A DNA stretch of 64,000 nucleotides from an uncultured bacterium (GTDB taxonomy: Bacteria; Bacillota; Clostridia; Lachnospirales; Lachnospiraceae), in assembly GCA_945828315.1 (NCBI GenBank), contig CALZQA010000006.1:1-64000 (forward strand), read 5' to 3'. Both the position numbers and the translations under genes were made by a program. The notes below the pieces were generated by a model. That model made no database searches. It was not told the DNA's origin and saw only the letters and a list, made by a program, of their open reading frames with translations. This document shows positions 10,153 to 21,611 of this stretch, in pieces (within the stretch, counting starts at the first letter, position 1; each line of letters begins with the position of its first letter).

Positions 10153-10905
10153 CTACAACCGCAGCAACTCCCATTTTGAGGTGACATTCAACTTGCGGAA
10201 CAGATTCTGCAGATGTTTTTGCAGCGTATTTTCGCGGATGCCCAGTGCATCCGCGATTTCTGCGTTTGTCTCAAAGCGGTAGAGATGGCTGAGGATCTCA
10301 ACTTCACGTCCGGTCAGACAGTAACGCTGCTTCATGTCGGACAGCCGTTTTTCGTCGGCAATGTGTCCGGTGCGGTCTGTGTCAAGCATCCGGTGCATCA
10401 CGGCATTCAGGTGCATACCGAGTGCGCGGAGAAAAAACATATCGTCCGTTGTGAAGGCACCATCTATACTCGTGCGGTATAAGGTCAAGAGTCCGAGCAG
10501 CCGGTTGCCGTGAACGATCGTAAACTGCATATCATCGTAGACATCAAATTTTCGGTAACAGTTTTTATAAAGCGGAGAGTTTAAACGTGTCTGTTCGTCC
10601 AGGATCGCGCTGGAGCGCAGCAGCTTAGACTCTTTTGCATAGAGGTTCCACAACATGTAATCAGCATCCGGTTCGTATGCGAGGTAAGCTTCCTCCGCTT
10701 CTAAAAAGGTTTCCGGATAGCAGATCGGATTGCATAGTGTCACATCCTCGGAATCAGGGTTTTTCTTTAATAAAATGCTGGCGTAGCTAAAGGGTACAAT
10801 AAGCTTCAGGCGCTGGAAGAAGTTTTCTTTAATATCTTCCAGTGAACGCCAGTTATACATGTCAAAAATAAGGTCGTTGATGACCAGAAACTGATTTTTT
10901 TCCAT
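10153..10905 (-). CDS. LuxR-type (GerE HTH) transcriptional regulator with GAF-like N-terminal region
   Basis: 250 aa; C-terminal LTGREVEILSHLYRFETNAEIADALGIRENTLQKHLQNLFRKLNV. Confidence 0.85.
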   Translation of the reverse strand: MEKNQFLVINDLIFDMYNWRSLEDIKENFFQRLKLIVPFSYASILLKKNPDSEDVTLCNPICYPETFLEAEEAYLAYEPDADYMLWNLYAKESKLLRSSAILDEQTRLNSPLYKNCYRKFDVYDDMQFTIVHGNRLLGLLTLYRTSIDGAFTTDDMFFLRALGMHLNAVMHRMLDTDRTGHIADEKRLSDMKQRYCLTGREVEILSHLYRFETNAEIADALGIRENTLQKHLQNLFRKLNVTSKWELLRL

Positions 10906-11056
10906 GAGAAGCCCCCCTTTTTGCTGTAATTTAACAGTTATGATAACATTATAAAATAGAATATACTTAAAAACAAGTAGAAGTAATGCTTTATAATTAG
11001 AAAGTGAATAAAAATAAGAATGGAAATCGTTGGTTAGAGATGTTAAACTATAACCA

Positions 11057-11118
11057 GCTCAAAAGAGCAGATACAAAGGCGTATCTGAGACAACAATCTG
11101 TCGCAGATGCGTTTTTTT
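11057..11118 (+). promoter_or_regulatory. Leader with mutually exclusive hairpins and terminator (attenuator/riboswitch-like) upstream of patA-like gene
   Basis: CAGATAC(11068)/GTATCTG(11081) overlaps terminator CGTATCTGAGACA(11080)/TGTCGCAGATGCG + T7. Confidence 0.6.
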
Positions 11119-11251
11119 AGTTCTGGCTGCTTATGCAGAGGCCTAGCATGAGATGAGACGGAACAGAGAAGCAAGAGGGATTAGATAACAAAAAAGAAAG
11201 GTGAAGCGCAGCTGGGAAATAACCGGAAGCTGTGGCAAAAAGGTGAACATT

Positions 11252-12622
11252 ATGGCAGATAAACAACAGGTAATTGCAGATCTTGATAAAGTGATCGGAT
11301 TGATCAAACGTGATACAAAGGATATTACACCGGAAGAGAAAAAAGAGATGGTAGCAGATACCATTAACTATTTTGACAACTATGTCAGCCCCGGATGGTT
11401 AAAATACCGCAAGTCCGTATCTTCCGATTCAGAGGGCGGCGCAGTGTTAGAGTGGTACGATGAGGGCGCTTACTGCTGTGGATTAAATGATGAGAAGTTT
11501 ATTGACTGTCTGGGCGGTTTCGGTATCTTTACCTGCGGACACAGAAATCCTGAGATTCTGGATGTGGTAAAGGCACAGTTAGACCATCAGGCGTTACATT
11601 CACAGGAGCTTTTGGATCCGCTTCGCGGATATCTGGCAAAGGCAATGGCTGACATTACACCTGGTGATCTGCAACAGTGCTTCTTTACAAATGGTGGCGC
11701 AGAAGCGGTCGAGATGGCATTAAAGCTTGCACGTATTGCTACCGGCGGAAGCTGGTATATATCTACGGTCGGTGCATTCCATGGAAAGTCCATGGGCGCG
11801 ATCTCCATGGGTGGTAAAGGAACCTATCGTGTTCCGTATCTTCCGATGGTACAGCAGGTACAGCATGTGGAGTACGGAAATGCAGAGGATATGAGAAAGG
11901 CAATTCATAATCTGCAGGCAGTCGGTGAGAAGGTTGCAGCCGTGATCCTTGAGCCGATCCAGGGTGAGGCAGGTGTTATCATTCCTCCGAAGGGCTATCT
12001 GGCAGAGGTACGTGAGATCTGTGATGAGACCGGTGTTGCACTGATCTTTGACGAGATCCAGACCGGTATGGGACGTACAGGTACCATGTGGCGTTGTGAG
12101 GCAGAAGGTGTAACACCTGATATCATGACATTCGGTAAGGCATTCGGTGGTGGTATCTTACCGATCACCGGTATCATCTGCAGACCGAAGATGTGGACAC
12201 AGGATCTGATCGATAACCCGTGGCTGCTGGGATCTCCTACTTTTGGCGGAAATCCGCTTTGCTGTGCGGCAGCACTTGCGACGATCAAATACATGCTGGA
12301 GAACGATATCCCCGGTGTATGTGCAAAGAAGGGTGAAGTATTAAAGGCAGGTTTACAGTCTCTGGCTGATAAGTATCCGGAGATCATTCAGGAGGTTCGC
12401 GGAACCGGTCTGATGCTGGCAGTGGAGTTCCGTTCCTGCGAGCTGGGTTATGAGACTTCCAAGGGTCTGTTTGCAAGAAAGGTCATGACAGCCGGAACTC
12501 TGGTAAATGCGAAGACGATCCGCTTCGAGCCTACCGCTGTATTATCCGATCAGGATATCAAGGACGTCATCAGCCGTATGGATGAGGCTTTGGCTGATAC
12601 GAAAAAAACATTTGATTTATAA
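11252..12622 (+). CDS. patA: Putrescine aminotransferase-like class III aminotransferase
   Basis: 456 aa; VSPGWLKYRKSV, FIDCLGGFGIFTCGHRNP, LHSQELLDPLR, VAAVILEPIQGEAGVIIPPKGYL, FGGNPLCCAAALATI closely resemble PatA. Confidence 0.85.
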   Translation: MADKQQVIADLDKVIGLIKRDTKDITPEEKKEMVADTINYFDNYVSPGWLKYRKSVSSDSEGGAVLEWYDEGAYCCGLNDEKFIDCLGGFGIFTCGHRNPEILDVVKAQLDHQALHSQELLDPLRGYLAKAMADITPGDLQQCFFTNGGAEAVEMALKLARIATGGSWYISTVGAFHGKSMGAISMGGKGTYRVPYLPMVQQVQHVEYGNAEDMRKAIHNLQAVGEKVAAVILEPIQGEAGVIIPPKGYLAEVREICDETGVALIFDEIQTGMGRTGTMWRCEAEGVTPDIMTFGKAFGGGILPITGIICRPKMWTQDLIDNPWLLGSPTFGGNPLCCAAALATIKYMLENDIPGVCAKKGEVLKAGLQSLADKYPEIIQEVRGTGLMLAVEFRSCELGYETSKGLFARKVMTAGTLVNAKTIRFEPTAVLSDQDIKDVISRMDEALADTKKTFDL

Positions 12623-12643
12623 GATTTAAAGATAAAGGAATGC

Positions 12644-12682
12644 AAAGGCGCATATCCCTGAAAAGGGATATGCGCCTTTTTT
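12644..12682 (+). terminator. Intergenic terminator between patA-like and nhaC-like genes
   Basis: Perfect 16-bp stem AAAGGCGCATATCCCT-GAAA-AGGGATATGCGCCTTT + T-tract. Confidence 0.88.
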
Positions 12683-12712
12683 CTTGATGAAAAAGAAAAG
12701 GGGGTCTGATAC

Positions 12713-21469: not shown

Positions 21470-21576
21470 GAAAAGTTTTGCATTAGAATGAAAAAACCTA
21501 ATTTTATAAAGTAGACAAATAAAAGTCCGAGTGCTAATGTATTATGTGGTTAAAACATAAACGACATGACATGAGC

Positions 21577-21611
21577 AAAGGCGCTTATCCCAAGGGATAA
21601 GTGCCTTTTTT
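21577..21611 (+). terminator. Leader terminator upstream of third aminotransferase
   Basis: AAAGGCGCTTATCCC/GGGATAAGTGCCTTT + T-tract, arms similar to 12644-12682. Confidence 0.85.

Follow-up and report, generated by a model that had tools for sequence, protein, structure and literature searches.

A putative ANTAR-type transcription attenuator with a single hexaloop upstream of a putrescine aminotransferase gene in Lachnospiraceae

Introduction

The leader of a putrescine aminotransferase gene in an uncultured Lachnospiraceae bacterium contains an RNA segment that can pair in two ways. Is this leader a genuine regulatory switch, and what might read it? The window, the whole 64,000-nucleotide stretch of DNA analysed here, carries a putrescine/GABA cluster that comprises aminotransferases, an aldehyde dehydrogenase, Fe-alcohol dehydrogenases, an amidohydrolase and NhaC-type transporters. 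The reading that we favour, with a probability of about 0.78, is that the leader is an ANTAR-type transcription attenuator read by an ANTAR protein linked to glnA, and that the same protein acts at further sites in the cluster and at amtB.

Structure of the leader

Three hairpins can be read directly from the plus strand. GCTC (11057-11060) and GAGC (11065-11068) form a small hairpin around an AAAA tetraloop. It is followed by the antiterminator, a simple 7-bp stem in which CAGATAC (11068-11074) pairs with GTATCTG (11081-11087) around the loop AAAGGC (11075-11080); C11068 is common to both hairpins. The intrinsic terminator (11075-11118) pairs a 5' arm, AAAGGCGTATCTG (11075-11087), with a 3' arm, CAGATGCG (11104-11111), over 13 bp, and runs into T7 at 11112-11118. 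Because GTATCTG is an arm of both the antiterminator hairpin (11068-11087) and the terminator, the two structures are mutually exclusive. The first-pass annotation had proposed these alternative pairings and the small upstream hairpin, and the sequence bears out both, though the small hairpin is not conserved. It lies outside the conserved element and was otherwise found only in the nearest relative, with the loop AAGAA.

The computed energies are -20.5 kcal/mol for the terminator, -7.3 kcal/mol for the antiterminator and -4.0 kcal/mol for the small hairpin. The terminator is thus the stable form, and expression therefore requires a factor that holds the first of the two exclusive hairpins. 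Plus-strand folding of the leader region is better than that of shuffled sequences (z = -4.0; 0 of 200 shuffles).

The gene downstream, on the plus strand at 11252-12622, encodes a class III putrescine aminotransferase (NCBIfam NF008570, 681 bits against a cut-off of 612). Its open reading frame opens with GTG at 11201, yet homologues align only from residue 13-18; the ATG at 11252, which follows AAAGGTGAA, is the likelier start by sequence comparison.

Two further attenuators lie on the plus strand of the same cluster. The second (12640-12685), in the gap between the aminotransferase and an NhaC-type transporter gene, consists of ATGC-AAAGGC-GCAT (hairpin at 12644) overlapping a 16-bp terminator. 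The third (21571-21611), between the aldehyde dehydrogenase and an argD-type aminotransferase, consists of ATGAGC-AAAGGC-GCTTAT (hairpin at 21577) overlapping a 14-bp terminator. They score 49.4 and 33.1 bits, respectively, with the search model described below, whose building alignment included both sites.

Distribution of the element

A search model was built from the aminotransferase leaders and the two other window sites, and was then run on other genomes. Outside the window, the amtB leader is the good match in the bacterium's own genome that has a hexaloop stem. In 150 genomes of the family, matches that pass the hexaloop-stem filter precede glnA, glnN, gltB, glnB, amtB, asnB, purF, pyrG and carA as well as amino-acid ABC transporter genes; some of these gene names were checked with Pfam and the remainder were read from translations. 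The operon of glnA and the ANTAR gene is itself attenuated in five genomes. In the bacterium studied here, the stretch scanned at this operon contained no attenuator of this type. The model also matched plain terminators, which the hexaloop-stem filter removed (eleven loci serve as examples). Two matches in ANTAR-less genomes of the class sample were among those lost on filtering.

Several other arrangements were observed. Tandem attenuator pairs precede amtB at two loci (L136, at 1583 and 1528 on the minus strand; L162, at 1564 and 1649 on the plus strand). A second hairpin form recurs between glnB/glnK and amtB (L131 at 2125, L132 at 2124, L134 at 1075 on the minus strand, and L159 at 2045), with arms of the TTATC-AAAGGA-GATAA type and loops such as AAGGTG, AAAGAC and AACGGA. 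Two further types of gene, neither with an evident part in nitrogen metabolism, are likewise preceded by attenuators, at three loci each: one encodes a long protein starting MAAFDKVKSGI and the other an ATP-grasp-like protein. These genes are possibly unrecognised members of the regulon.

The loop keeps a pattern close to R-A-N-G-R with a closing C-G pair, both in the orthologous leaders and at dozens of sites elsewhere. At 68 filtered sites, position 2 is A in 68 and position 4 is G in 68, numbers to be read with a filter that demanded A or T at position 2 and G at position 4 and with a terminator pairing that also demands part of the loop conservation. Position 1 is A in 61 sites and G in 7. 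The closing C-G pair is present in 68/68 sites, and the stem pairs are of many types.

The ANTAR protein and a single hexaloop

The genome contains exactly one ANTAR gene, and it lies directly downstream of glnA. A clostridial antiterminator gene in that position, NitR, has reportedly been proposed earlier. The ANTAR domain of the protein is well supported (PF03861, 60.7 bits against a cut-off of 27.3), and the best matches to its AlphaFold2 model (pLDDT 90) are Rv1626, EutV and AmiR. The receiver domain gave no Pfam match, and the sequence IIVSNYKLIDG of this receiver-like domain is without the acceptor Asp position. A conserved, strongly basic stretch (for example RWRKKMRAKPKVR; noted at L086, 6010-6552, minus strand) directly precedes the ANTAR domain in glnA-linked proteins, at the place where EutV has a coiled coil.

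The published ANTAR rule specifies a hexaloop with A1 and G4 in a hairpin, P2, that overlaps the terminator, and the targets are mainly nitrogen genes (PMC3369931). In the dual-hexaloop motif, a second hairpin, P1, is located about 5-12 nt upstream of P2, and P1 is essential for EutV (PMC3369931). The hairpin at 11068-11087, with A1 and G4 in its loop, is of the P2 type. An upstream P1 hexaloop was found in 7 of the 68 upstream flanks, against 7.4 expected by chance, so that none is in excess. The hairpin GCTC-AAAA-GAGC was considered as P1 and ruled out, as it has a tetraloop and is not conserved. Where the promoter is strong (33 sites), the -10 box and the P2 hairpin are separated by a median of 10 nt, which places the start of the hairpin only a few bases into the RNA. 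There is no space for P1, because the hairpin usually starts about 10 bases past the -10 box. In the window, this gap is about 18 nt and is occupied only by the tetraloop hairpin. A hairpin at the 5' end that folds and is bound early enough may dispense with a recruiting hairpin.

The missing P1 is one reason to consider that a different RNA-binding factor runs the same switch, with the ANTAR protein as a frequent companion only. Another is the set of contacts to RNA: compared with EutV, the protein retains K143, K149, E160 and M172, whereas Y164 is replaced by H and both R142 and K147 by Q (numbering fitted to Y164/M172), so that several EutV RNA-contact residues are changed. The loop itself speaks for the ANTAR protein, since the pattern it follows (six bases, A or G at position 1, G4) is that of ANTAR targets. 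So does the occurrence of an ANTAR gene inside the attenuated operon in the five genomes mentioned above.

Co-occurrence bears on both possibilities. In the family sample, 48 of 136 ANTAR-positive genomes have hexaloop sites as opposed to 0 of 14 ANTAR-less genomes (p=0.003); in the class sample the counts are 12 of 117 and 0 of 99 (p=0.0005). The positive counts (48 and 12) come from manual tallying of the filtered matches, and the genomes counted are not phylogenetically independent. Altogether, 0 of 113 ANTAR-less sampled genomes (14 + 99) had a hexaloop site, which argues against a different factor. Among genomes with orthologous leader regions, an ANTAR gene was detected in 27 of 30 leader-positive genomes (including one Treponema MAG and two MAGs labelled Acholeplasmatales) versus 11 of 20 leader-negative ones. 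The three leader-positive genomes in which no ANTAR gene was detected would suit a different factor; all three are MAGs, whose incompleteness touches both presence and absence calls. We consider a different factor unlikely, with roughly one chance in eight. An antiterminator of the BglG/LicT type finds no counterpart here, as the neighbouring genes scanned include no PRD-type regulator and the simple stem is without the internal loops of a RAT.

Conservation and covariation

Another alternative is an ordinary terminator with a 5' flank that pairs only by coincidence. It draws some support from the abundance of AAAGGC...GCCTTTT terminators in these genomes and from the model matches that proved to be plain terminators without the hairpin. 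Orthologous aminotransferase loci (80 retrieved) provided a direct comparison. The same arrangement is present in many Lachnospiraceae, several Clostridium, two MAGs labelled Acholeplasmatales and two Treponema MAGs. In the orthologous leaders, 26 of 39 terminators have their 5' arm in common with a six-base-loop hairpin, against an expectation of 6.0 +/- 1.5. The terminators in this test were found without reference to the hexaloop, and the loop sequence played no part in the choice of sites.

The upstream arm also covaries, as the first-pass annotation had proposed to check. In the orthologous leaders, 92% of the cells in the antiterminator stem are paired, with 31 double-side changes against 8.7 in shuffles (0 of 500); over 64 sites, 94% are paired, with 71 double-change cells against 20. 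The 26/39 test is the cleaner proof, because the covariation sets were partly chosen by the presence of the stem. Compensating stem variants include GATAC/GTATC, GTGC/GCAC, GAAGC/GTTTC and TGTC/GACA, and covariation is seen in both exclusive helices, terminator included. A DNA similarity search with the leader returned only short chance matches in coding DNA, at three loci. The excess of shared arms, the covarying upstream arm and the placement between promoters and nitrogen genes make an ordinary terminator very improbable. At the level of comparative sequence, the leader is confirmed as a real RNA on/off switch of the terminator/antiterminator kind, the geometry that had been read from this one sequence.

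Promoter region and alternative ligands

The promoter of the window is weak by consensus. The probable -10 box is TAAACT (11044-11049, plus strand), as judged from consensus scoring and its position in relatives, with a weak -35 element upstream; transcription would start near 11056. A LuxR-type regulator with a GerE HTH (Pfam PF00196, E=1e-13) is encoded divergently on the minus strand at 10153-10905. Between the two genes, the palindrome TACTTAAAAACAAGTA (10964-10979) occurs only once in the genome when up to 1 mismatch is allowed, similar palindromes occur upstream in eight relatives, and it is a likely DNA site of the LuxR-type protein.

With palindromic DNA near the start site, ATAC-N6-GTAT could itself be an operator for the LuxR-type protein or another DNA-binding repressor. 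Its arms vary in a compensating manner while the non-palindromic loop is fixed, which is the reverse of an operator, and TACTTAAAAACAAGTA fits a LuxR operator better. We consider an operator at this place very improbable. The earlier suggestion that the LuxR protein or another RNA-binding factor acts on the leader survives in its second half, through the co-occurring ANTAR protein; its first half does not, as the LuxR-type protein has its own candidate operator in DNA.

Least credible is a polyamine- or amine-sensing riboswitch, the ligand idea suggested by the position before a putrescine aminotransferase and by the terminator/antiterminator layout. The only conserved fold is one hairpin of 4-7 bp whose loop has six bases, and it is too small to serve as an aptamer. 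The element is also found in front of genes of nitrogen assimilation that have no connection with polyamines (glnA, amtB, asnB, purF, pyrG). Consistent with the absence of a recognised class in the first-pass annotation, Rfam gave no match at the gathering score (the best relaxed one being a miRNA far below cut-off).

Proposed mechanism and significance

In the ANTAR mechanism that we propose, the nascent RNA would fold by default as the terminator, and transcription would end near 11118. Under nitrogen shortage, the active ANTAR protein encoded beside glnA would bind the AAAGGC loop through this one hexaloop and keep the upstream hairpin closed. The closed hairpin would withhold the arm 11081-11087 from the terminator, preventing termination, and polymerase could continue into the putrescine aminotransferase gene. 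The two further cluster attenuators and the amtB leader would be controlled by this protein as well, so that putrescine and GABA breakdown would be tied to the glutamine or nitrogen state of the cell. The LuxR-type protein may supply pathway-specific control at the promoter, and the operon would then need both its own inducer and the permission of nitrogen control.

The leader thus probably ties polyamine use to nitrogen supply. Together, the single-loop sites make a concrete candidate for how nitrogen is controlled in Lachnospiraceae, and they connect the catabolism of putrescine and GABA, two metabolites of relevance to the gut host, with the supply of nitrogen. We also lean toward a broader proposal, in which these sites form an ANTAR attenuator class of their own, with one hexaloop near the 5' end and served by an ANTAR protein that is linked to glnA and whose receiver cannot be phosphorylated; this class would provide nitrogen control in many Clostridia and reach gut polyamine and GABA catabolism. 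If this class is real, ANTAR antitermination does not always depend on the P1 'recruitment' hairpin. The two-hairpin rule becomes testable with these sites, which include dozens of natural single-loop attenuators of about 55 nt that are easily transcribed in vitro.

Comparison with known ANTAR systems

A literature search that covered few subscription journals did not turn up any description of single-hexaloop ANTAR attenuators in Clostridia. The closest known systems are the dual-hexaloop RNAs of EutV and other ANTAR proteins (E. faecalis eut, NasR-nasF, AmiR-amiE; Ramesh 2012, PMC3369931). The leader resembles them in its six-base loop with A1 and G4, the overlap of the hairpin with the 5' arm of the terminator, the presence of an ANTAR protein in the genome and the nitrogen-related targets. 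Unlike them (PMC3369931), it has one hexaloop, usually near the transcript start in this group, and no P1; G is allowed at position 1; and the receiver-like domain of the protein neither matches a Pfam receiver nor contains a phospho-acceptor motif. The leader is not filed in the dual-hexaloop RNA family, because the second hairpin was looked for and not found; its sequence features place it as a putative single-hexaloop variant that would work like a dual-hexaloop ANTAR RNA.

For Desulfotomaculum and others, the predicted ANTAR nitrogen regulons likewise include P-II, ammonium transporters and glutamate/glutamine synthases among their targets (PMC3369931). Those regulons were found with a dual-hairpin model (PMC3369931), in contrast to the single sites described here in Lachnospiraceae and other Clostridia, where the set of targets extends to asnB, purF, pyrG, carA and putrescine/GABA catabolism. 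A single hexaloop is bound by EutV, and the definition of the minimal site has been revised to one loop (Walshe 2022, PMC8934654). Walshe et al. did not settle how widely ANTAR regulation relies on single hexaloops and anticipated such sites where the polymerase imposes no time limit (PMC8934654), whereas the single sites described here are found in transcription attenuators.
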